Assembly: GCF_032854445.1 (NCBI RefSeq) | Contig: NC_088301.1 | Location: 54,173,187-54,237,186, forward strand | Source of the DNA: Liolophura sinensis | Lineage: Eukaryota; Mollusca; Polyplacophora; Chitonida; Chitonidae | Length of the DNA: 64,000 nt | Reading direction: 5' to 3' | In this document: positions 25,598 through 61,800 of the stretch, piece by piece | How positions within the stretch are numbered: the first letter of the stretch is position 1 | How the letters are laid out: each line of letters opens with the position of its first letter | Program-made: the position numbers and the translations under genes | Notes under the pieces: model-generated | What the model was told of the DNA's origin: nothing | Databases searched by the model: none | Seen by the model: the letters and a program-made list of their open reading frames with translations, nothing else

Positions 25598-26750
25598 CCA
25601 GTAGTACGGCCAGTACGGTAGATTGCACGGTAGGATGTAGTATGAACAGCATAACGAGAGCGGTAGACAGCAGTATGACTAGTTTGACTAGAACGGTGTG
25701 CAGTGGTACGACCACCACGGTAGGACCAGCATGACTAGAACAGTAGGAAGTAGTACGACCAATACGGTAGCCAGCAGTACGACCAACACGGTAGGCAGTA
25801 GTGCGACTACCATGGCAGGAAGCAGTGCTACCAGTATGACTAGAATGGTAGTAGTACGACCAATACGGTTGTCAGCAGTACGACCAATACAGTAGTCAGC
25901 AGTACGACCCACCGTAGATATATGGACAGCATAACTAGAACGGTAGGCAGTGTTACGACCAGCACGACTAAAACGGTAGACAGAAGTACAACTAGTATGA
26001 CTAGATCGGTAGGATGTAGTACGGCCAGTACGATAATAGGACCAACACGGTAGCATGTAGTATGAACAGCATGACTAGAACGGTAGATAGTAGTATAACC
26101 AGTACAGTAGACAGCAGTATGAACAGTAAGATAAGAGCCGCAAATGGTAGTGCGACTGGTATGAGTAGGAAAGTAGGCAATAGTACGACAAGTATGACTA
26201 GAAATGCAGGAAGTAGTACAACCCTTACGGTAGACTAGAACGGTAGGCAGTAATACGACCAGCATGGTAGGATATAGTGTGAACAACATGATTAAAACGG
26301 TAGTACGACTAGTACAGTAGGGTGCAGTACGACCAGTAAGTATAGATGGGTAGGCAGCAGCACGACCAACACGATAAGATGTAGCATGAACAGCATGGTT
26401 CCGGTAATCAGTAGGCAGTAGCACCCTTAGTTCGGTAAACGGAAGTATGACCAGTGTGGTAGGCAGTAGTGCGAAGATCACGATAGTCAATAATATCACC
26501 AGTAAGGCAGGCAGCACTGCGAAGAGGACATTTGGTAGTACTATGGCCAGTATGGTAGGTAGTAATACAACCAGTATGACAGGCAGTAGTATGACCAGTG
26601 TGGTAGGCAGTAGTGCGATCAGTACAATAGCCAGTAGTATGATCAGTGTGGTAGCCAGCATCACACTCATTCCGGTAAGCGGTAGTGTGTCCAGTATGTT
26701 AGGCAGTGGTGCGAAGAGTACGTTAGACCGTAGCATGACCAGTATGTACG
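25598..26750. repeat. 24-bp minisatellite, about 48 units
   Basis: The unit is approximately CAGTAGTACGACCAGTACGGTAGG, with frequent substitutions and some longer variants that include 'gatgtagtatgaacagcatgactagaacgg' (near 25635, 26055, 26265, 26375). This hints at a higher-order pattern. Because 24 is divisible by three and some frames of the unit lack stops, long open frames appear on both strands. On the + strand these are Ser/Thr/Gly-rich octapeptides of the type SSTT.TVG (26447-26806, 119 codons). On the - strand they are Val/Leu-rich (25840-26760, 306 codons). Frameshifts between units interrupt the + frame. Confidence 0.9.
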
Positions 26751-27801
26751 CCAAGATCAATTTTCACCGTTTCCATGCAAGACATTCTGAAATAGCAAAT
26801 AACTGAAGGAAGACATTTAGGTTGTTTTCATGTACAGAAAGCTTGTTATTCCCTTAGTATATACTAGTGTTAAAGTGTTCGTTATGAGACCTTAACTGTG
26901 AGCGATTAGGCTGGTGTTCCGGGCGTATACATTGCCTTTAATATCATATTTGAACATCATGAATGTATGTCACATGGTTTAAGTGTGTCTGGTACTTAAC
27001 ACCTTGTGGTGATGTTTTTAATGCGCATGTACTCGATATGTTCGTGTTTCCATCACGCAGCATTCCATGCAGTTCCTCCATTTAAATAAGAATGACTTTC
27101 TCGATATAAAACAAAATATTTGATGTCCCCAACACAAACAGAACACTTATACGACCGACTTCTGTCTTTGTCCAAACATTCACGCACAAAATGGACTTGT
27201 CAGTATTTACCAGCAAGTCCAGTTGTTTGCTTCTTACTCACTGCGAAAGGGTGATCGATGGGTTATTTGCTCTGAGTACGCAACTTTGTACCGCTGTGTA
27301 GGGTAAGCAGTTTAACAGAAAATTTTAGTGATGTATGTAAAGCGAGAAATTATTTACACTTAGTAAATCACATAAGGTTTTTCAACAAGAGGAAGGTGGC
27401 AGAATTTAGTGACTGAAATTCATATGTTTTTGGTCATCCTGACAGTGTGAAATCTAAGTGTTAAGTTTCACATTCGTATTCCACTCGTAGTCCAAGAAGA
27501 CCAATAAGATACTGTTCGTTCTGCTATCCATTGTTTCAAATTTCTTCACTGCTTGCCAAACTGAGTTGGATTTCATTCGACTTCCAAATAAGATACAAAA
27601 TCCAGTGTTCTGTTACTGTCCAGCCCATTTATATCAACACAGATTGCAGAAAGTTTTTCCAGTTAGAACAGCTCTTCTATAACTCTTCCCAGCAATAGAA
27701 TCTTATTTCATCATGTTGGACAGACTATAACTCGTCTCTATGTACGGCACATAAATGGCACGAAGGTGTTAGATGTTAACGTAGGGAAACAGCAATCATA
27801 C
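26751..27801. other. non-coding, nothing recognised
   Basis: AT-rich sequence following the minisatellite. No open frame or repeat deserves a call. Confidence 0.45.
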
Positions 27802-32382: not shown

Positions 32383-34183
32383 GCCGCATTGTTTCTTACC
32401 GTAGGCAACAAACTCTTAATTGACCTTGTCGACGTCTTCTTTCCGAATCCCCGGAGGCCATCATGGTAAAATCCGGGCACCGACTAATCACGTCAACTCC
32501 TCGTTCACCATAATGGAGTTTATCTCTACATTTCACTCATTGCATCATTTGGAACAGCAACACTTTTCTTCCAGCACAAGAGCTTCACATGTTTGTCTTT
32601 ATTAACTCACTTCAGGATGCTGTTGTTAAATCAGGTTTACATAGGGGAAAGCTGGTGGATAGCGATCAATACTCCTCAGTCGTGCAGCACACATTGCATT
32701 AAAGTCTGAGACGTTTCTGTACGTGTTCTCCGGCCATTTAGATGGTGTGTGGGTACTATGGGACACAACCTAATTGTCTGATAGATCTTTTGGATTACCT
32801 TAACTCTCGAATCGTAGACGCACGATTCACTTACAGTTGTCACAAATGACTATTAAGACATATGCCGATTAAACAAGTTATCGATAGAGAGTCTGTCATT
32901 CAAAGAAATCTGAGTAAATTATACGGCCCCACGCAAAGTTTTGTTGCCATACCATTTCGCCTCTTTCATCTTTATTGATGCTTTCAAATGCAAGATAAGG
33001 AAAATTTGCATTAGTCAAACAGATTTTAACTAGACATGCCTCTTCCAAACCGAAGTTATAATAAGAGTTCTCTAGGTGCCACTTGTCTGGAAAACTGCAT
33101 ATAAATCGATAAAACATAGAGACATTTTGAATCTTATGCCTTTGGGCATCATTTAAAATTATACGTAAGATGATAGTGTATAATATAACATTATGACAAA
33201 CTTCCTAGACTAAAACGCGTAGTCTGCTATTAACAAGAGCTATTTATTTCGCAAACACGCACTTGAAATCGCTTTTTCCTGCTTTTTGAAACGGCAAGCT
33301 GTTTCTAAGCAGACGTTTCGATACCCTCCACATTTCCCCAAGGGGTATGGCCAAACGGAGAGTATTGTAATTATACTACGGTACAAATAGGCGGTAAAAG
33401 TAGTAGCCAAGTGTAAAAATGAACGAAAAGGCGTATTATCTAATCCATTCATTATATACTACGTTTACCAGGCTTGCCATTGAAAACTTTTTCTCAATGA
33501 AATGACAGTACATTCTGCCCTTACTAATCAACGAAAAATATTTCACAGTTTAACTATGATTAAGTCTTAAACATACTTCCATAAAATTCTATTATTCATG
33601 ACATGGTCAGAGTTTGGAAATATAAAAATCGTTGTTGGAAGGGACTGTTGTATCAACATGAAGTTTACTTACCTTTCCTATATTACTTCCTTATAGGTGC
33701 AAGCTAACATTTTGTCACTTCAATTGTGTATTTTTTATGTCAAGAAGAAGAGATTATCTCCTTATATGTCTGGAATATATTACATATGTTATTCGTCGAC
33801 TTGACTTGCCCCTTTCTACGATATCATTATCATGCTTTAGGAACTAAAAAGAAAAAGAATATTTGACTCACCCGCCCAACCCAAAAAGACCTCCTTCCCT
33901 GAAAATAAATATCACATATCAAATTAAATGGAATAGTGGTGAAATAAGGATTTGCATCAATGTGTCACAGGTGTGTTGCCACTCTCATCTTTATAAACTA
34001 CCAGGCAAAAGAAAGGTTTCACCGTATTTTTTGTCATAAAAAAAGTAAAAGCGCGGTTCCGGGTTTGATTCTAAGCACCACTTAGTGTATGACTGCATCG
34101 TTTCCTCTACCAGAACGCATCGTCACGAACGCAGCAATTGGAATTGTGAAATTGCCACCACATGCAAAACGTCCTTTTGAGGC
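32383..34183. other. non-coding, nothing recognised
   Basis: AT-rich sequence upstream of the Tc1 copy. The left end of that element must lie in the last few hundred bases, but no inverted repeat matching the right flank could be found by eye. Confidence 0.4.
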
Positions 34184-34270
34184 ATGGCTCGTGATGCACG
34201 TCCGGTAATGTTGCATAAATACTCTTGCTCGAAAGAGCAGACATTCAGTGACCGAAAAAACACAAACAGT

Positions 34271-35281
34271 ATGCCAAGACTTACGCAAGCGCAACGAGAC
34301 CAGGCCATCGGTATGTCCACCATGGGAGTCTCGCAACGTCACATTGCAAGAACGTTCAACTGCAGCCAAACCACCATCAGGAGGTTGTTGATACGCTATC
34401 AGCAGACAGGCCAGACCCAAGACAGACCAAGATCGGGAAGACCGAGGGTAACAACTGCGGCTGAAGATCGCTACATCCGGCAGATCCACCTTCGAAACCG
34501 ATTCGTCACGGCTACGTCAACAGCGTCGACGGCACTAGGCCATGTCATCAGCCCCAGAACAACACTGCGCCGTCTTCGTTCAGCTGGTTTACGACCTTAC
34601 CGCCCCTTCCGTGGGATGGCCTTGACCCTTTTACACCGTCAACGCAGATTGCGATGGGCACGTATTGTACGTCGGTGGCAGCGACGTGACTGGGCAAGAG
34701 TGCTGTTTACAGACGAGAGCAGGTTCTGTCTATTTAGGAACGATGGCAGAGTTCGAGTTTTCCGACGAAGAGGCGAGCGTCTCGCGCCAAACTGCGTAAG
34801 AGAGGTTTATCCGTTTGGTGGCGGAGGCGTCATGGTTTGGGGAGGGATTTATGACCAAATGAAGACGCAGCTGGTTATTGTGTGAGGTAATCTGACTGGC
34901 CAGCGATACGTTGATGAGGTACTGAGACCTGTCGTCGTTCCATTCCTCCAACGACAGCCAAGAGGATCGATCTTGCAACACGACAACGCAAGACCTCACA
35001 CTGCCCGCATTGTTACAGACTACCTCGAGACCGCAAACGTCATCGTGTTGCCCTGGCCAGCCAACTCACCAGACATGAACCCCATTGAGCATCTCTGGGA
35101 TCACCTTGACCGCCGTTTGAGACAGCTGGTGCCTCCTCCAACTAACCAACAGGAACTTGAGCAAGCTCTGTTAAACCTATGGAACCTTATCCCTGTTGAC
35201 GTCATCCGGCGACTGACGACGTCAATGCTGAAGCGTGTGCTTGCTTGCATTGATGCCCAGGGTGGCCACACTCGCTACTGA
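34271..35281 (+). pseudogene. Tc1-like DD34E transposase, one in-frame stop
   Basis: This is a cut-and-paste transposase of the Tc1/mariner superfamily, 336 codons from ATG at 34271 and of normal family length. Residues 1-60 form the helix-turn-helix region (MPRLTQAQRDQ, then HIARTFNCSQTTIRRLL) with an AT-hook-like RPRSGRPR at about 52-59. A second helix-turn-helix region follows at about 65-115. The catalytic Asp is at 148 in FTDESRF, the second at 238 in QHDNARPHTA, and the Glu at 273 in SPDMNPIEHLWD, giving the DD34E spacing. The GGGGVMVWGG block is at about 183-192. Reading is continuous in one frame except for TGA at codon 205 (34883-34885), just before GNLTGQRYVDEVL. This is consistent with one substitution such as CGA to TGA. 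The frame also extends 29 codons upstream of the chosen start, but the family start is MPRL. Terminal repeats were not identified. The copy is recent but probably inactive. Confidence 0.92.
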
Positions 35282-35444
35282 TGACTGTAGTCCTTCATTT
35301 CTGTGGATACTGTGACTTTACATGCACTTGCCAGTTAACTTTACATTTGTGTAATTTTTTCTTCTGACCCCTTGTCTCTTTTATTGTGTTTTGTGGCCAA
35401 TTGAATGCCAATATTTTAAAGCATTTTTCAGAGAATATTTCACA

Positions 35445-35672
35445 ATGATTCCTGTTTATAAACCAATCCTCTTAATTCTTATATCTGCCTTTGTTTTTCT
35501 TTTATGGGCTCAAGAAGTGGGTGAAACCTTTCTTTTGCCTGGTAGTATAGTTGACGGATTTCCGGAAGACTGGTACACATACAAATGGAACCTGGCATCG
35601 AACACATCAGAAAAAATTATTGCGCTATTTAGAACTCTTATGGTGTTTGTACAAAGCTTATGGTCTTTGTAA
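35445..35672 (+). CDS. hypothetical short frame with signal anchor
   Basis: From the ATG at 35445 (acaATGa) a 75-codon frame encodes MIPVYK and then a hydrophobic core (PILLILISAFVFLLWAQ). A more polar tail follows with aromatic residues (GFPEDWYTYKWN, NTSEK). It resembles a signal peptide or type II membrane anchor followed by a short luminal stretch. The frame ends at TAA and no convincing donor was located. It lies just downstream of the Tc1 copy, so it may be host sequence next to the insertion. It could also be chance. Confidence 0.25.
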   Translation: MIPVYKPILLILISAFVFLLWAQEVGETFLLPGSIVDGFPEDWYTYKWNLASNTSEKIIALFRTLMVFVQSLWSL

Positions 35673-36400
35673 CTTATAAGTTATTATTGTAGCATGAAGA
35701 TTATCCACTTCGTTATTGGCTGATCAGGTCTGGGTTCCAGAAAGCCATTTATGTTCTAGGATTATCTACCCAGTAGAAACGTGATATATTGTGTATTACA
35801 TAGACTTGTGAAGAATGCTACATTCCAATTATTATTATCCGACCTCGTGCGGACACAACGAAAAACGTTCGCAAAAGCCTTGAAAGAGGATTACTATTAA
35901 GATATAAACGCCAGCAGCTTTGAGGGATATCTGGCAACTACAGAGTGGCACTGTTATGAAGGCACCGTTGTGAAAATCGAAATTGTCTAGATGACGCTCT
36001 CGAACTCGAAATTAGCTTAAGAAAACTGAAATCGGAAATATTTGCTTATCCATCATTCATCTGTAAATGAAAAAGACTATACTCTAAAATATTCAAGATT
36101 ACATTTTTAATTCAGAAAAGCTAATTTGTTCATTTCTACATCTTTCTTGCTGGACTAAATTATGCCTAGTATTTCTGCAACCGCCTTTATGTACTTTATA
36201 ATTTAATGCGACGATTTCCGCTGGACATAATTCATTGGGAAGACTATCAGATCACATGTTGTCCTAATGATTGAAAAAATTGCTATGTTAGTGTAGAGAC
36301 AGTGTAAAGCTGAAAGGGCACTTATGACTGAAAAAAAAACGCCTTCGATGGGACATATCATGATAAATATATAACATCTGAATTTATTATTTTTTGCAGA
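35673..36400. other. intron or upstream region of the 36491 gene
   Basis: AT-rich, no frame. It ends in an acceptor (attatttttttgcag, ending about 36400), so at least one untranslated 5' exon should lie further upstream. That exon was not identified. Confidence 0.5.
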
Positions 36401-37783
36401 GTAAAATAGTCGGGTTGCGCCCGGTACGGCCCCCGTGGGAGTGAAAGCTACGAAGAACGGAAGGCGAGAAAACGTCTGCAGCTATCTACCATGCCGATAC
36501 GACTTTTACTGTGTTTACTTCTAGCGGTCGCTGTAGACGGGAGCCTACGACGACATCATGCCTTAAAAAAGTTACATAAAAACTCTGTTGGTAGCATACG
36601 ACCCTGGTCACCATTTCACGCATGGCATCAACATCGGATTGAACCCTGGTTCCTCCGTTGGCCTGCATTCTGGCGTCTCGGGTCTGCTGCAAAAGATATA
36701 AATGTAGCTAGTGTTAAGCAAAGACGGCGCTGGAGTACTTTCAGAGCCCGAAGATCTAAATGGAGTCAGCTCTTTTCTAAACTTAACAAGCACGATTTCC
36801 ATAAGGTTCCAAAACAGAATCCATTCCTTTCTTGGCCAAACTCTATCGACAAGCTTGCGTCCACGTATGACCTTTCAAAAACGCTGGAAAGTGCCTCTCA
36901 TTATGCAAAACCACCATGGCTTCAGAGATTAAGGAATAACCGCGACGGAAACACTGTTGATTCTTTGCCAATTCAAACTCTGTATGCTGGTGACCGGCTC
37001 GCTAAAGTTTCGAACCTTAAATGGGATGAGCGACGGGGAGAGTCCAAATCTGGTTTCCTTAAAACTATTCATCCAATAAAAGGGGACTTTCCAAAATCGT
37101 CGCTGTTTTCTGAACCCTTACCGAGACTCACTGACCACAAACATCACCCAGAGCAGGAAAGAGTGGATGAAGATCTTACTTCTGGGGAAGAATGGTCAGG
37201 CCTTCCAGTGGAAACGACACAGTCTCATTCACAGAGCCCGGATTGGCGTACCAACCTAGAGAAAGCCGTAAAATTTGAAATCGCTAAAGAGTTTGACCCT
37301 TACAAATCCACCGACGACCATGTGTTGTATCAATCGGGAGAAACGTCAGCGAAGGAACCTGCAAATGGAGAAAAGGAAAGAAAGATGTCAGAGAATTTTT
37401 TTTCCCTGCCCATTCAGCAGACCGAAGGGAAAGAACCTGTGGGGCCTATTTCAGATAGAAATAGCGGAATATTTGATGGTCAGGGATTTCCAGCAAGCGG
37501 GGAAACATTTGAAGAACACTTTAGCTCTGGTGTGAAAACTTCACCAGGATTTTCGTACGGAATAGTTGGCCAGAACGACGATTCGTTCAAGCCAACTTTT
37601 GAGGAAACGTTGCAGCCGATGGAGCGTTCTACTGGAGACACGTTTGGTCATGACTTTGGATCATTTGAGCCTCTAGTACCTGGTGGAGATGATTATTACT
37701 CTACATACATGGATTTTGACGAATCTGGATTTGGATCATTTGGATCATTTGGACCCTTTGATGAAGGGTCTTTCGTAAATGAG
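36401..37783 (+). CDS. novel secreted Trp-rich, bipolar-charge protein, main exon
   Basis: An acceptor (ttttttgcag) opens an exon with about 90 nt of 5'UTR, ATG at 36491 (taccATGc), 431 codons, and a phase-0 end at a perfect donor GTAAGT (37784). Residues 1-17 (MPIRLLLCLLLAVAVDG) are a signal peptide. The mature part of this exon has no cysteine and about 12 tryptophans, clustered at 39-91. Residues 18-110 are strongly basic with a furin-type site RARR at 85-88. The middle is mixed and the C-terminus (about 385-431) is acidic and Phe/Gly-rich with a GFGSFGSFGPF repeat. I recognise no domain. Secretion, low complexity and charge segregation would suit an extracellular matrix, shell or adhesive protein. 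Several dibasic sites would also allow a processed precursor. Neither is proved. The coding call itself is strong: length, signal peptide, start context and both splice sites agree. Confidence 0.8.
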
Positions 37784-39555
37784 GTAAGTACAGATCTAAT
37801 GCCATAAAGACAGGGGGGAAGTTATCATCTGCCAGACAATATATAACATGTAAAAAAAAAACACCTGGGGCCACTTACTAAGGCCAGGAAATGAAGCAGT
37901 TAACACAAAAATCCATCTCACTGATCCACAGAGATAATTCTGCAGTAAACATACATAATAAACAAAATAGGATTAAATTTTATCCTAAAGTTAGTATTTA
38001 AAAGACATGATGGTATGGTATGATTCCTTGACAGTAATCAAGTAATTACAGTCAACTTTCGAATGCAGACATTATTCAACAGTTACGGATAATATGGTTT
38101 CGTATGTGACTCTCTGCACAGTTATGGATAATATGGGTTCGTGTGTGGGTCACTGCACAGTTATAGGTAATATGGGTTCGTATGTGACTCACTGCACAGT
38201 TATATATAATATGTGTTTGTATGTGACTCACCGCACAGTTATAGATAACTTCGGTTCGTATGTGGCTTTCTACACACTAATGGATCATATGGGTTCGTAT
38301 GTGGCTTTCTGCACAGTTATAGATAACTTGGGTTCGTGTGTGGCTCACTGCACAGTTACGGGTAATATGGGTTCGTGTGTGGCTCACTGCTCAGGTATAG
38401 ATAATCTGGGTTCCTAAGTGGCTCACTGCACAGTTATAATACGGGTTTGTACGTGGCTCACTGTACAGTTATAGATAATATGGGTTCTTGTGTGGCTCTC
38501 TGCACAGTTATGGATAATATGGGTTAGTATGTGGTTTCTGCACAGTTATGGATAATATGGGTTTGCTTGTGGCTCTCTGCACAGTTATGGATAATATGGG
38601 TTTGCTTGTGGCTCTCTGCACAGTTATAGATAATATGGGTTCGCATGTGGCTCTCTGTACGGTTATAGGTATTATGGGTTTGTATGTGGCTCTCTGCACA
38701 GCTATGGATAATATGGGTTCATATGTGGCTGTCTGCACAGTTTAAATAATATGGGTTCGCATGTGGCTCACTGTTGAGGTATAGATAATATGGGTTCACA
38801 TGTGGCTCTCCGCACAGTTATGGATAATGTGAGTTCGTATGTGGCTCACTGCACAGTTATAGATAATGGGGGATCATATGTGTTGTTTTCCTCAGTTATG
38901 GATAATATGGCTTCGTATGTGGCTCTCTGCACAGTTATAGATAATATGGGTTCATATATAGCTGTCTGCACAGTTATGGATAATATGTGTTTGTATGTGG
39001 CTCTCCGCACAGTTATGGATAATATGGGTTTGTATGTGGCTCTCTGCACAGCTATGGATAATATGGGTTCATATGTGGCTCTCTGCACAGTTATGGATAA
39101 TATGGGTTTGTATGTGGCTCTCTGCGCAGTTATGAATAATATGGGTTCATATGTGGCTCACTGCACAGTTATGGATAATATGTTTTTGTATGTGGCTCAC
39201 TCCACAGATATAGATAATATGGGTTCGTATGTGGCTCTCTGCACGGTTATGAATAATATGAGTTTTTTTTTTGGCTTTCTGCACAGTTATAGATAATATG
39301 GGTTCGTATGTGACTCTCTGCACGGTTGTGGAGAATACGGGTTCGTGCGTTGCTCTCTACACAGCTGTAGATAATATGGATTCGCATGTGGCTTTCTGCA
39401 CAATTATTGATAATATAGGTTCGTGTGTGGCTCACTGTACAGTTTTGGTTACGTTGCTGTACAGGTGGGAGGAATAAGATGTTGAAAGGAGAGCGTCGTT
39501 GCCTTCTGTGTGTTTTAATAGGTTTGATTTCACCTCGGGAAATCCATTTTCTGAG
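37784..39555 (+). other. intron of the secreted-protein gene
   Basis: It starts with GTAAGTACAG at 37784. Two acceptors are possible: 'gtgtgttttaatag' ending at 39521, or 'ccattttctgag' ending at 39555. Only the second preserves phase 0 with the upstream exon. Most of the intron is the 39-bp minisatellite at 38079-39446. Confidence 0.55.
38079..39446. repeat. 39-bp minisatellite, about 35 units
   Basis: The unit is approximately 'tatggataatatgggttcgtatgtggctctctgcacagt', highly regular in length. The period equals 13 codons, so one + frame reads as repeats of MDNMGSYVALCTV and a - frame as repeats of QRATYEPILSITV. Scattered stops and one-base changes break both frames, and single units carry variants such as 'gtgactcactg' and 'gtggctttctg'. 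It sits inside the intron of the secreted-protein gene. The open frames it creates are products of the period. Confidence 0.95.
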
Positions 39556-39660
39556 AGCTCTGTGAATCCTTTTAGAAAACGCCTTGAAGCAATCACGACA
39601 TTCCTACCAGCAATCAATTTATGTCCAGAGGGCGAAAAACCCTCTGTTGCAAATATCTAA
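39556..39660 (+). CDS. candidate terminal exon of the secreted-protein gene
   Basis: A frame ending in TAA at 39658-39660 reads SSVNPFRKRL, then AITTFLPAINLCPEGEK. From acceptor 39555 it is in phase with the 36491 exon and would complete a protein of 465 residues with one cysteine in the mature chain. The same frame is open further upstream to the acceptor at 39521 and reads FDFTSGNPFSE, which fits the Phe-rich theme. Using that site would require a different upstream donor or an extra small exon, because GTT TGA results otherwise. An ATTAAA poly(A) variant lies at 39858-39863. Confidence 0.5.
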   Translation, partial: SSVNPFRKRLEAITTFLPAINLCPEGEKPSVANI

Positions 39661-41459: not shown

Positions 41460-42200
41460 GGACGACATCTGAGTACAGACACATGGCAGTATTGGTGGCA
41501 ACTTGAGGACGCAGTCACTGGGTATCTGTGTACTCAGAGATAGCCTCTGTGACATTGTGTCCATCTGATTACACATACAAACGGTGACGACCTCTGTGTA
41601 CAGACAGACACACAGTGACGACCTCTGTGTACAGACAGACACACAGTGACGACCTCTGTGTACAGACAGACACACAGGAACGACCTCTGTGTACAGACAG
41701 ACATACAGGAACGACCTCTGTGTAAAGACAGTGACGATCTCCGTGTACAAAGACATACAGTGACAAGCTCAGTGTACCCAGACACGCGGTGACAACCTCT
41801 GTGTACACAGAGACACAGTAACAATCTCTGTGTACACAGAAACACAGTCACCAGCTTTGATTGCTCAGACACACAGTGACGACCTCTCACTGCACAGACA
41901 CGCAGTGATGACCTACGAGTACACGGTGACAGAATGAAGACCTCTGTGTACACTGACACACAGTGACAACCTCTGAGTACATACACACACAGTGACGACT
42001 TCTGTGCACTCAGGCACACAGTGAAGACCTATGACTACAGACACATACAGACAACCTCTGTGTACACAGGCGCACATTGACGACCTCTATGTACACAGAC
42101 ACACAATGACAACCTCTATGTTTACAGACTGACAATAACGACCTCTGTGTACATACACACACAGTGACAACCTCTGTATTCACAGGCACATAGTTACAAT
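41460..42200. repeat. 29-31-bp minisatellite, about 24 units
   Basis: The unit is approximately 'gtgacgacctctgtgtacacagacacaca' with length variants of 29-31 bp. Four nearly identical 31-bp units (cagacagacacac variant) lie at about 41584-41710 and the flanks are more diverged. The minus-strand Val/Cys-rich open frames here (for example 41534-42019) come only from the repeat. Confidence 0.9.
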
Positions 42201-44577: not shown

Positions 44578-45537
44578 TTGTCCACGCGGTGTGTTCACCG
44601 CAGGACAATGACGTTTGATATCAAACCTTCATGTCGTGTAATCGGCGTCATTGAAGTTTCCCACTTGTAAATCATACTCAGCCTGATAACGCCAGTGATA
44701 CCTATTTCACATGACAAGGATTAATTATCCCTAGGCTGCAAATTTCCGTTGTACACAGGGATTGAATGTAGTCACCGAATATTAGAATTCCTTAGCAAAA
44801 CAAATCATATTTCTCCTTAATTGTCGATTGATTTTTGTTGTGTCGTCTCTTATTAACCTTGTTTGTCTGTATTGCAAGGTGGTAATGATACTAATATTGC
44901 TAATAATTCATATTCATTCAACACCATATCTTGAATCTCATACGAAGTATTTGCACAAGCAACGTAAACAAAACTGATAACTGTGTTTGCCTTAAACTGG
45001 CATGGCATATCCGTTCATTGTGTGTCTAACCCCATGCAAATGACGCTTTGTATAAGAATGGTCGCAACCGCAGGATACAACTTGCAACCGCAGGTATCAA
45101 GCTTAAGAAACAAGGCTGTGTAACAGTCAGAGAAATATGTTCACTGCAAGTGCACTGCTTAACTCAACTAAAACATTAAGGTTTAGCAACAAAACTTCGC
45201 AACAATGACGAACTGATTTTCCTTGAATGGAGATATTCACAAAATGTTAACTTATAGTTACTTTCCTTGCAGATTCCAAAAGTGCAGCCCATGAACAGTT
45301 GAACAGTCCACTAGACAAGACCTATTCTTTGTTAAAGTCAATGTATATGTTGTCGGGGTTGTGTCTGGCCATTTTTTAAAACCTAATTCAGCTTAAGCCA
45401 TGTTGCAAGAGGGCCAGTAATTTGCTACTGTTTAAGCTTTTACACCAACAGTTGGAATAAATCACTTGCTGAGGTAAACTGGGAAGAGACCATATTCCCA
45501 TGGTTAGGTGTGACTATTTGCCAACTACACAATGTCG
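44578..45537. other. non-coding, one acceptor-like site
   Basis: 'gttactttccttgcag' ending near 45273 is a good acceptor, but the frames after it stop quickly or lack a donor. A 21-bp direct repeat (gcaaccgcagg...) occurs twice near 45064-45107. Confidence 0.35.
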
Positions 45538-45790
45538 GGGCCTCCGTGGCTCAGTTGGTTAGCGCGCTAGCGCAGCGTAATGACCCAGGAGTCTCTCACC
45601 AATGCGGTCGCTGTGAGTTGAAGTCCAGCTCATGCTGTACGTGGGAAGGTCTGTTATCAACCCGCGGATGGTCGTTGGTTTCACCAGGATCTACCCGGTT
45701 TCCCCCCACCATAACGCTGGCCGCCGTCGTCGTATAAGTGAAATATTCTTGGATCGGTGTAAAACATTAATCAAATAAATAAATAAATAA
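45538..45790 (+). mobile_element. tRNA-derived SINE, best-preserved copy
   Basis: The head contains a clear A-box (tggctcagttggttagcgcg, from 45547) and a B-box-like element (gtgagttgaagtcc, about 45613). The body is 'ccgcggatggtcgttggtttcaccaggatctacccggtttccccccaccataacgctggccgcc'. The tail is 'tataagtgaaatattcttggatcggtgtaaaacattaatcaaataaataaataaataa'. It serves as the reference for the other copies in the window. It is not a functional tRNA gene because the acceptor and anticodon arms do not pair. No clear target-site duplication was seen. Confidence 0.85.
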
Positions 45791-46154: not shown

Positions 46155-46275
46155 GGCGATTGTGATGGTATAGAAACCAGGGCGTGCAAGGACGACTCAC
46201 AGTGCAAATGTCTAGGAATGTACTTCTGTGTTTCCGGAACCTGCTCGACCGTCTCCACCTCTTCAGACGACCAGG
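46155..46275 (+). CDS. internal exon encoding a six-cysteine domain
   Basis: Acceptor tatcgtttggcag at 46154 and donor GTAAAT at 46276 enclose 121 nt, open in phase 0 with one base left. The peptide has six cysteines spaced C-x7-C-x5-C-x-C-x5-C-x4-C within 28 residues, followed by a Ser/Thr/Asp tail (STVSTSSDDQ). Cysteine density this high in AT-rich DNA is unlikely by chance. It indicates a small disulphide-bonded extracellular domain. I cannot name the family: it could be a growth-factor-like knot, a protease-inhibitor-like module or a defence peptide. An upstream exon carrying the signal peptide must exist but was not found. The next exon is probably at 47554. Confidence 0.55.
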
Positions 46276-47553: not shown

Positions 47554-47649
47554 AGCTTCCACCGGAGATGTCCGGGATCTGGCACGAGACGCCGATGACA
47601 GAATGACAGAATCTATCAAGAGAGGTCAAATTAGCTGGTGGCAAATAAA
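47554..47649 (+). CDS. candidate terminal exon of the Cys-rich gene
   Basis: A strong acceptor (ttttcctacttacag at 47553) is followed, in the phase left by the 46155 exon, by a short tail (ELPPEMSGIWHETPMTE) and TGA at 47604-47606. AATAAA at 47644-47649 lies about 40 nt further on, giving a compact 3' end. Another frame through the same exon stays open longer, but it does not match the phase. Confidence 0.45.
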
Positions 47650-50419
47650 TTATAAACCACCAGGCTTTGTGTTGCCATGGTTGTACCTACTAATGGCGAA
47701 TATTGACCTGAACCCGGAAACAACAGCCCATTGACCCAGGAAAAGCAGCTTATTATTTGGACGTAATTGACCTGTGCATCTTATGTGTTCACCCTCCTTC
47801 TGTCAATATCTCTGTCGTTAATTGACTTCAATGGTTACACTCGTGACACGTGCGAAACAACAGAGAGCATCCGTCATACAAGGTCGATACAAAGAAGGAT
47901 TCGTCGATCTCTTGTCCCGTTCCCCAGCGTTCAATCCTTGGTAGCCACCTCACCATCACCTGAATGTTTCTCCCTCTTGTTCTCACTGTTAACAGAGAGT
48001 GCTGGTTTACGTTCTTGAACATTATGAGTGCTGTGGATCTGTCAATTCTCTACCAGTCTAGCGTTTGGACTTCCATCTTAAATAAACTTACTGTTCGTAT
48101 AACAGTGACTTTCTCACTGTATCTGTCAAAGTGATGTCTTCTTCTGTTTAAAAGTCTCAGTGTTATGTACCTAACACAAAAGATCATACTGACGTGTACG
48201 TGACAAGGGGTTATTTGATGTCATCATGTGGCTAAAATTCTCTGACATGTACCGTACTCGTTTCTTCCAAAACTTTTTTTGAGTGTAATGCTAATTAGTA
48301 GTGTCTCACGTAAATATTTAATCGACTCAATTCAGACTCTGACTTTACAGAGTTGTCTACATATAAATTAACTGGTTCTAGCAACTGTGTCCTGACGATG
48401 GCCTGTACTTTCTAGGTTTCTGAGAGTATCTTAAGATTTTTCTGACATTTTTGAAACTATGTATTTTACTGCTGTCTATTGAATGTATATTTGAAGTTTA
48501 TACATGTATATGTGTCCAGGTTCTTCTTTACTTCTGATTCACGGAGTTCGCTATCGCTTTTAACTTAAGGTAATTAGTCCCTTACATTTTAGACGTGTGT
48601 ATACATGTCTACCCGACAAAGACAAAAATATTTGCCACAAGGGTCAAACCGCTGACGGAAATCGTGATTGATTCCTGATGCAGACTAAATCATTTTCTGC
48701 TACTGTAATGACTGTTATTAGAGGGTGACACGCAAGGCTATCAACGCGAACAAAACCGGATTGTTAAATCCATACCTATAGTTTGCCTTCGATTCAAATG
48801 GCCGAGGGTCGGTACAGCCTGCCAGACATGTGGATATGAAATTCCATGGCAATTTTATCACTCATCCTCGTTAAGCAACTCATCACACAGTATTTCTTTG
48901 ACATGTTTCAACTGTGCCCACACATCGGCTGTCTGATGGATGGGTGTATGGCATTCTGTATTACGATGTGACGGATCTGTAAAGAGTTACAGTTTTTTCT
49001 ATAACTGGAAAACACCGTTGTGTAAACAAAATACCGTCAGGAAACAGATTCTGTACGGTTAATTGGACCCACCAGCACGCAGTAACTCCCTGTTTCACAC
49101 ACTTTACCTAATATGACTTGGAAGAGATTAACACACGGCGAGATTAATCCCATTTGGAATACCGGCACCTAGTCATAATATGATCTATTTCTTTTAACTT
49201 GTCGCATATATTAAGCTCTTTGTAAAATAACTCATGCTGGCGAAAATTGCCTTTCGTTAGTGACACGTAACATCCCATGTTATTCACACGGTTAACTTCC
49301 ATATTATTCAAAAGAAATGTCAGCTGGAATACCTTTTATAATTCATAATATTAAACTCAATAAGCGTACTTTCGAGCCGAAGACTTTATTGCCCGGGGTG
49401 ACGTCATATCTATTAAAAAGCAAGCAGAATACTGGATAATGGGCGGAATCCAGTAATTGGATAGAGAGCGTCACGTCTTACCTAATATCTGATCAATGGT
49501 ATCTAACACTAGGCCCTACTCTGTTTGAAACTGTTTCAAATGTTCATGCAATATAACCTAAATAAATTACTTATTTATGCATTTTGTACCCATATGACTT
49601 CACGGCACTTTGGCTTTTGAGTTGGATTTTACAGGAAATTCTGTTATAAAAACCAACGCAGCCTGTTCGCAGAGAGTAGTGCAGGCCTTTTTTGATTGCG
49701 TGGAGTTTGTTTCAGGTCGTTCTTATAGTGAAACAGACTACCCTCTATGCCCATTATCCGGCATTTATGAATGATTATGGCGTCATTTGAGACAATGAAG
49801 TTGTGTTTTCGGAAACATTATGGAGTTTAACATTATGAAATAGAAAAGGTATTATAAATTTTCATAATAGTTTTGGAAATAATATGGTCGTGCATCATAT
49901 CAGTATGTAGACGTTGTGTTAAGTGTCGTTAATGAATGGCAATCTTGGCAGTGAGCATGAGTGATTATGAACACATAGGCTGAATATAGGCGACTAGTTA
50001 AAAGGATTACAAAGTAGCGTGCATGTAGAATGCATCACGCAGTTTCTGGAACGTTTAGGAAGGAGTCACAACATTCGTCTGGCGCAGTGTACGCCAGTAT
50101 ACATTATACACAGTAATACTGTGTGCTGATTCAAAGTTGCGGATACCCTTCAAGTTACTTTTATATATCTGTTTTTAAAGACTTCTTACAGCTTTCCGAT
50201 GGGCGATTCAAATGCATTGTGGCTGATTCAACTGCTGATTCCAAATTTAAAAACTTAACGATGCTGACTTAACATGTTTAGTACGGCTAGGTACATTTCT
50301 GATTGTTACAGTAACATCATTGATTAAATAGCTTTGTAAAAGTGCTTTATGGCGCGCAGTGGAAACCTACAATACACCATGTTATTTTCGATAAGACATA
50401 TATGTATGTTGATATAATT
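47650..50419. other. non-coding stretch, no supported gene
   Basis: One frame at 47767-48018 begins with a hydrophobic stretch and has dibasic sites (RRIRRSL) but starts from TTG with no ATG, so it is not called. The remainder is AT-rich with nothing recognised. Confidence 0.4.
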
Positions 50420-60400: not shown

Positions 60401-61365
60401 TATTGGTGTTGGTGGTTTAACACAGGTAATGCTCTACGGCATGTCTGGCGCACCTTAATTACTGATCTGTGGATAAGGAAGGAGCGAGATCCCATGAAAT
60501 CTAATCTGCAATCTCGAAGTAGGCCCAAAATAATGAAAGTGGTTGTTGTTTCAAAGGTTGGCTAAGTCTGTGTAACATATAACAATTTGTTATTTCAAGT
60601 AACAACGTACACTTAATTCATAAATTATTTTTTAAGAATTGTGTATAAAAACCATCATTTTTCTTCGAAGCTAGTGTCATATACAGATTCTAATGATTAT
60701 TAGTTAGCTTAGGGGGATAAGCAAGATTTAAGCCAACAAAATAATAAAGCCGAGAGAGAAAATGTTTAAACTAAAGGCTTATTTATCAGTGTTGTCATGA
60801 TTTTAAAATTAATCTACTGGAAATTGCCCATGCGAACTACTTGGACCCTGTATTCTGATAAAGATTCGATAACATCAGATCTTCGGTGCTAGAACTCAAA
60901 CTGGTCCATTTGGCACTATGCCATCTTTTAACAAATCACCCAGTAATCCTCTTCTGTACGTACTCTAACACAATTCAGGCCAGATATTTTTTAAACAAGG
61001 TATCAGCGTTTAGGAACACATTTTCCAGATTACTAAAGTATTTATGATTGGTGCTACACGTTGCACAAAAGGATATTCATTTATGAAAGTAGATGTTTAA
61101 CATGAAAGAGCCAAGTGGGAACCAACGCACCTGGCTGGGTAGATCTGCTAGACGAACCTAATAATATACCGATAACCAGTCTTTTCATATACATACAACC
61201 AAATAGCAATATATGCCATATATATTAGAAGCATAAAATCCATATAAACCTCAAAGTCTGCTATGTCTTCTTTAACCTTAATTGAAAGCACAAGGGTTTC
61301 TTTAAGAGAAAACATGTCTGTGTTCCAGTGAACAAAGCTCCTAATAATGTTATGTTAATTTGCAG
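57456..61365. other. non-coding stretch, no supported gene
   Basis: AT-rich with scattered short frames (57680, 58100, 58815, 59331, 60113, 60359). None has a motif or paired splice sites. No repeats were recognised. Confidence 0.4.
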
Positions 61366-61800
61366 GTTGTAGAGATTCTTGTACAGGAGTTAAATATGTC
61401 TACTATAACATCTACGTACTTTATTACTACTACATGCACTCTAGAGGGACGCTATGTAACGAAGATATAGCCTTTCTTAAAGCAAGCCACATAAATATCC
61501 CTTCTCGTCTTAGTGATATACCACATCTTTACTGGACTCTTAATATTCATAAGTTCCCATACAACGCTCAATTTAATTTTGTCGACCGAAATGTGACGAG
61601 AGCTTTACAAGAGGTAAAGTCATTTAGGAAGAAATACTGCTGTGCCATTACAAAAAAATATGGGCCAGCTGCATGTGGATTTGTACCCAATCAAACAGTG
61701 TCGTGCACAGTTATTCCAGTTTGTACCAACTGCACTATTGGCAGAACTATACATGTTTCTGTATGAACACGACTATGTGAAGAAGTTATTAAGTAATCGT
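61366..61800 (+). pseudogene. reverse transcriptase fragment, internally deleted and frameshifted
   Basis: One frame reads 'DIPHLYWTLNIHKFPYNAQF', matching the 'lP.LYW.PKlHK.Pyk.Rf' motif at the start of the palm in Penelope-like and related RTs. It then has 'RALQEVKSFRKKYC', matching the following helix. It continues with 'CGFVPNQTVSCTVIPVCTNC', which corresponds to the much later 'vFQQ..GIPMGTNCAP' motif. The roughly 100 residues between, including the first catalytic Asp motif, are missing. After a frameshift near 61700 the next frame continues with 'LLAELYMFLYEHDYVKKLL', as in 'LLADLFLY.YE.dfi..L'. The copy is inactive. The R1 copy F starts about 60 bp further on. Confidence 0.7.

Follow-up and report, generated by a model that had tools for sequence, protein, structure and literature searches.

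The stretch of Liolophura sinensis DNA considered here (the window: 64,000 nt of NC_088301.1, 54,173,187 to 54,237,186, forward strand, to which all positions refer) carries on its + strand a long open exon that belongs to a gene for a secreted protein, followed by two candidate downstream exons, the first of which would encode an array of six cysteines. The coding part of the main exon comprises 431 codons, from the ATG at 36491 to a GAG codon directly preceding GTAAGT (36491-37783, +), and lies in a stop-to-stop frame of 465 codons, as compared to 241 for the longest frame in 100 second-order Markov windows (mean maximum 164). The ATG is the first past 36400, and since an in-frame TAG is located upstream at 36407-36409, no coding sequence precedes the ATG within this exon in its frame. 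The 5' untranslated part would span 36400-36490 (+) and is preceded by TTTTTTGCAG (36390-36399), a possible acceptor whose score ranks 43rd among the 3588 AG sites; a TATA-like box, TATATA, is found by pattern match at 36368-36373 (+). It is possible that the exon is spliced at the acceptor before 36400 or, alternatively, that it follows a promoter with a transcription start near 36395-36400. The phase-0 donor GTAAGT (37784-37789, +; AGGTAAGT at 37782) ranks fifth among the 4002 GT sites by a matrix built on approximate metazoan frequencies. The octamer AGGTAAGT, which is strongly donor-like, occurs eight times on the two strands of the window as compared to 2.0 expected, a number reached in none of 100 shuffles, and some of these copies may indicate further exons.

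The translation begins with a signal-peptide-like hydrophobic segment, judged by eye (residues 1-17, MPIRLLLCLLLAVAVDG; 36491-36541, +), which contains the only cysteine of the main exon. According to the translation, the charge table and the basic sites, this segment is followed by a basic, Trp-rich segment with RRR at residues 78-80 and a furin-type RARR at 85-88 (residues 18-210; 36542-37120, +), and then by an acidic, Phe/Gly-rich segment that ends in GFGSFGSFGPFDEGSFVNE (residues 211-431; 37121-37783, +). From residue 18 onwards, the mature chain of the predicted spliced product carries a net charge of +16 over its N-terminal half and of -28 over its C-terminal half (p 0.0002, 20,000 shuffles); for the cumulative charge excursion p is 5e-5. 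The clustering of Trp is milder, with seven residues in a stretch of 64 (p 0.02 by shuffling; positions 39, 45, 53, 57, 61, 81, 91, 115, 143, 178, 235 and 252, and 481 in the putative last exon), and Phe is clustered as well (p 0.006). The short GFGSFGSFGPF repeat is encoded by 2.8 copies of a 9-bp unit (37729-37753), and the spliced mature chain contains no N-glycosylation sequon. On a charge-hydropathy plot all five stretches tested, the whole chain and four parts of it, fall on the disordered side, some of them narrowly (0.404 versus 0.422 for the whole chain, 0.418 versus 0.428 for residues 110-210). An earlier sequence-only reading of this DNA had described a signal peptide, a good acceptor, the 431-codon exon with its GTAAGT donor, a basic N-terminal and an acidic C-terminal part of the chain, clustered Trp and the Phe/Gly repeat, and these features are borne out, the signal peptide as a signal-like hydrophobic stretch and the acceptor as an acceptor-like site.

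The same reading had noted that the protein contains almost no cysteine, and this part is not confirmed, for the gene probably continues. Candidates for a second exon were sought as open segments of 30-600 bases within 37800-64000 that are bounded by a phase-0 AG (acceptor score of at least 4) and a GT (donor score above 3). Of the 36 frame-compatible candidates, overlapping ones counted, the segment at 46155-46275 (+) ranks first by splice score alone, a score that takes no account of cysteines (15.8 bits, as compared to 13.4 for the next). It consists of 40 codons plus one base, encodes GDCDGIETRACKDDSQCKCLGMYFCVSGTCSTVSTSSDDQ, and carries the six-cysteine array C-x7-C-x5-C-x-C-x5-C-x4-C; its acceptor ranks 18th among the AG sites. 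On the + strand of the window this array is the sole match to the strict six-cysteine pattern, the two matches on the - strand both being located inside a 29-bp minisatellite (41570-42194), and of 300 simulated copies of 37784-64000, three contained an array flanked by a usable acceptor and donor in phase 0. The pattern was defined with the array already in view, and the ranking by splice score is therefore the more independent of the two tests. A phase-1 join would lead on to a probable terminal exon (47554-47606, +), which encodes ELPPEMSGIWHETPMTE followed by a stop codon and whose acceptor ranks 10th among the AG sites; AATAAA at 47644-47649 (+) is a candidate poly(A) signal, with another at 48081. 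The product would thus probably comprise about 488 residues, made up of a signal peptide, a basic Trp-rich part, an acidic Phe/Gly-rich part, a six-cysteine module and an acidic tail. The low cysteine content therefore fits one exon but probably not the protein, and the range of the sequence-only reading, which extended to 39660, also took in a 39-bp minisatellite of the putative intron (38079-39448).

The cysteine layout of the module resembles that of a knottin, in that six cysteines follow in order and loop b measures five residues; this loop has 2-7 residues in 90% of knottins (PMC10138031), and at the knottin level the comparison covers loop b only. The array begins at residue 434, and the nearest basic pair ahead of it, RK, lies at 297-298; the more than 130 intervening residues without a dibasic site disfavour the release of a free module by dibasic cleavage.

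Several observations bear on the strength of this gene model and of the reading built on it. The donor of the exon at 46155-46275 ranks only 114th of the 4002 GT sites, and a + strand array of any kind appeared in 21 of the 300 simulated copies. At the 3' end, the acceptor of 47554 is the second of 12 terminal candidates listed, and a rival before 47928, with which the protein would end after AFNPW, scores slightly higher; the last exon is therefore less certain than the cysteine exon. The main exon has a period-3 signal of 6.0, which speaks for the gene model, the windows taken at 400-base intervals showing a median of 1.0 with a 95th percentile of 2.7. By quarters, however, the signal is weak in the first two (1.8 and 1.5) and strong in the last two (4.4 and 4.0), and stretches of tandem repeat equal or exceed the value of the exon (up to 9.1). 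Period-3 is thus not enough by itself, and more weight rests on how long the open frame is. Finally, when exon 2 is modelled by AlphaFold2 from the single sequence, a beta-hairpin forms at Cys5 and Cys6, a location at which knottins carry one; this agrees with the knottin-like reading, but the evidence for a fold is weak. Knottins pair their cysteines 1-4, 2-5 and 3-6 in a knot with a C-terminal beta-hairpin.

None of the searches identified a family or a relative. Pfam returned no family up to E 10 for the main exon or for the spliced 488-residue product, only the sub-threshold YBR126W-A for exon 2 and the C-terminal 60 residues (E 0.12 and 0.18), and nothing significant for the three + strand frames of 36001-64000 with stops read as X (one chance-level row, E 0.093). 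PDB sequences gave no match to the main exon and non-significant ones to exon 2 (E 0.19 and 0.31) and the C-terminal 60 residues (E 0.12). The viral and bacterial contigs, where the search reaches close relatives only and little is expected for an animal gene, yielded 3 and 15 pattern matches, respectively, none of them a relative by tblastn. Rfam at gathering scores gave no hit, and a bacterial promoter and terminator scan of 36200-36500, uninformative for an animal gene, found nothing. Exact peptide and SINE-like strings from the locus did not occur in literature text, and papers on knottins or on mollusc secreted proteins with disordered chains or other unusual features provided comparators, with no match among the entries listed. 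EGF and WAP domains were considered for the six-cysteine module and set aside on spacing rules and on Pfam. Taken together, the open frame, the splice sites and the lack of a significant family match support the view that the main exon belongs to a real, unnamed animal gene for a secreted protein without a recognised family. This much of the earlier interpretation stands, whereas the pattern from which a matrix, adhesive or processed-precursor role had been proposed is incomplete, because the gene probably continues into the six-cysteine exon; the role itself may still apply.

Draxin is a vertebrate axon-guidance protein, and the layout of the predicted product resembles that of Draxin and, loosely, that of the mussel CRP-I precursors, membership in neither being claimed. 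Draxin is the nearest parallel and consists of a signal peptide, a long unstructured chain and a small C-terminal cysteine-knot domain, which binds DCC, while a peptide upstream of it binds Netrin-1 (PMC5871715). The likeness is one of layout only: a signal peptide, a long disordered chain and a small C-terminal cysteine module. However, the Draxin domain has about ten cysteines as opposed to six in the array here, and Pfam, which includes a Draxin model, matched no family in the 488-residue product. We suggest that the gene product is a single secreted protein, about 488 residues long, in which a disordered spacer bears a disulfide-rich C-terminal head for binding or cross-linking, a proposal that in our judgement stands about evenly between right and wrong. 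After the signal peptide, some 414 largely disordered residues, first basic and Trp-rich and then acidic and Phe/Gly-rich, would most likely serve as a flexible extracellular spacer, and its basic/Trp and acidic/FG ends might attract one another or charged matrix partners. The 28-residue module with its knottin-like spacing, followed by an acidic tail of 27 residues, would be held together by three disulfides inside one small domain and could bind or cross-link a partner, much as the Draxin knot domain binds its receptor, and a furin-type protease may trim the N-terminal part at RARR. More speculatively, and in our view doubtful as it stands, the protein may represent a class of lineage-specific secreted polyampholyte tethers with oppositely charged ends, in which the knottin is permanently attached as a structural domain for receptor or matrix binding rather than released as a peptide.

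But could the protein instead be a matrix component, or a precursor from which smaller peptides are released? The former, a disordered, charged constituent of the shell or another extracellular matrix whose cysteine module serves for cross-linking only, is unlikely. Uncharacterised proteins of biased composition or with disordered chains are numerous in limpet and abalone shell matrix, and unnamed secreted proteins are common in mollusc matrices (PMC3374290, PMC6003135). The product would share with these secreted or matrix proteins the lack of a known family and the often biased or disordered chain, a likeness of description; its repetition, however, is slight (2.8 units of 9 bp) and its composition is not extreme, Ser being the commonest residue (55/488). 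Rather unlikely, too, is a two-part precursor, in which the long chain serves as pro-region and either the six-cysteine module or peptides from the basic part are released for defence or signalling as in CRP-I. The order of signal, pro-region and C-terminal six-cysteine array would suit such a precursor, as would RARR and the other basic sites of the N-terminal part. The Mytilus CRP-I array reads C(X3-6)C(X1-7)CC(X3-4)C(X3-5)C, and the mature peptide is encoded in the last exon (PMC10138031). Common to both would be secretion as a precursor and a six-cysteine array near the C-terminus, and loops b (5) and e (4) lie inside the CRP-I ranges, yet loops a (7) and d (5) exceed them and C-x-C takes the place of the vicinal Cys3-Cys4. 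Moreover, the mature CRP-I peptide is preceded by a dibasic cleavage site, whereas here none lies within 130 residues ahead of the array, although cleavage elsewhere could occur; about 414 residues, as a pro-region, would separate signal and array, the predicted 27-residue tail follows the array, and the array probably lies outside the last exon. BLASTP against one CRP-I peptide, H1, detected no similarity.

The remaining alternatives concern the gene model itself. If the frame were left unspliced, it would end at 37807 and give a protein of 439 residues without a mature cysteine, and the stop eight codons past the donor and an AATAAA at 37957 would accord with this. We regard it as improbable, given that the donor ranks within the top five of the window's 4002 GT sites and that the best downstream phase-0 exon bears the six-cysteine array. 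Most remote of all is a chance or pseudogene frame or a part of a mobile element. No relative was found in the libraries and collections searched, which lack general animal sequence, and the first half of the exon shows weak period-3, but the open frame is almost double the maximum reached in 100 simulated windows. For the sequence-only reading, a frame that proved to be part of a transposon would have spoken against a gene; the frame contains no Pfam family, and the nearest element found, a Tc1/mariner-like one with 30-nt terminal inverted repeats (97%) at 33994-34023 and 35520-35549, ends at 35549, 850 bases upstream of the main exon.

Should the proposed exons be joined as described, the gene would make not a cysteine-free matrix polymer but a disordered spacer that bears a disulfide-rich head, and the question would extend beyond how the chain behaves in a gel or with mineral to the binding partner of the head. 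It also illustrates that a single-exon reading can conceal the sole domain-like part of an orphan gene.

Some neighbouring features are of note in their own right. The Tc1/mariner-like element (33994-35549) contains a Tc1-like transposase frame with matches to HTH_Tnp_Tc3_2 and DDE_3 that is interrupted by one stop codon. In the putative intron, the 39-bp minisatellite (38079-39448, +, 35.3 copies) keeps a + strand frame of up to 172 codons open, since its period is a multiple of three. Also in this intron lies a SINE-like sequence (45535-45790), which ends in a run of AAATA units and is presumably typical of molluscs; ARAGORN found no tRNA, this sequence included. A 135-codon + strand frame at 61359-61766 has a Cys-rich end (KYCCAITKKYGPAACGFVPNQTVSCTVIPVCTNC) and no Pfam match. 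Finally, the highest period-3 signal among the sampled windows belongs to a diverged, frame-keeping array of 24/48-bp repeats at 25600-26806. On the - strand it is open for 307 codons, to which Pfam gave no match, and on the + strand for 132; it could be a repeat-protein exon or merely a minisatellite.
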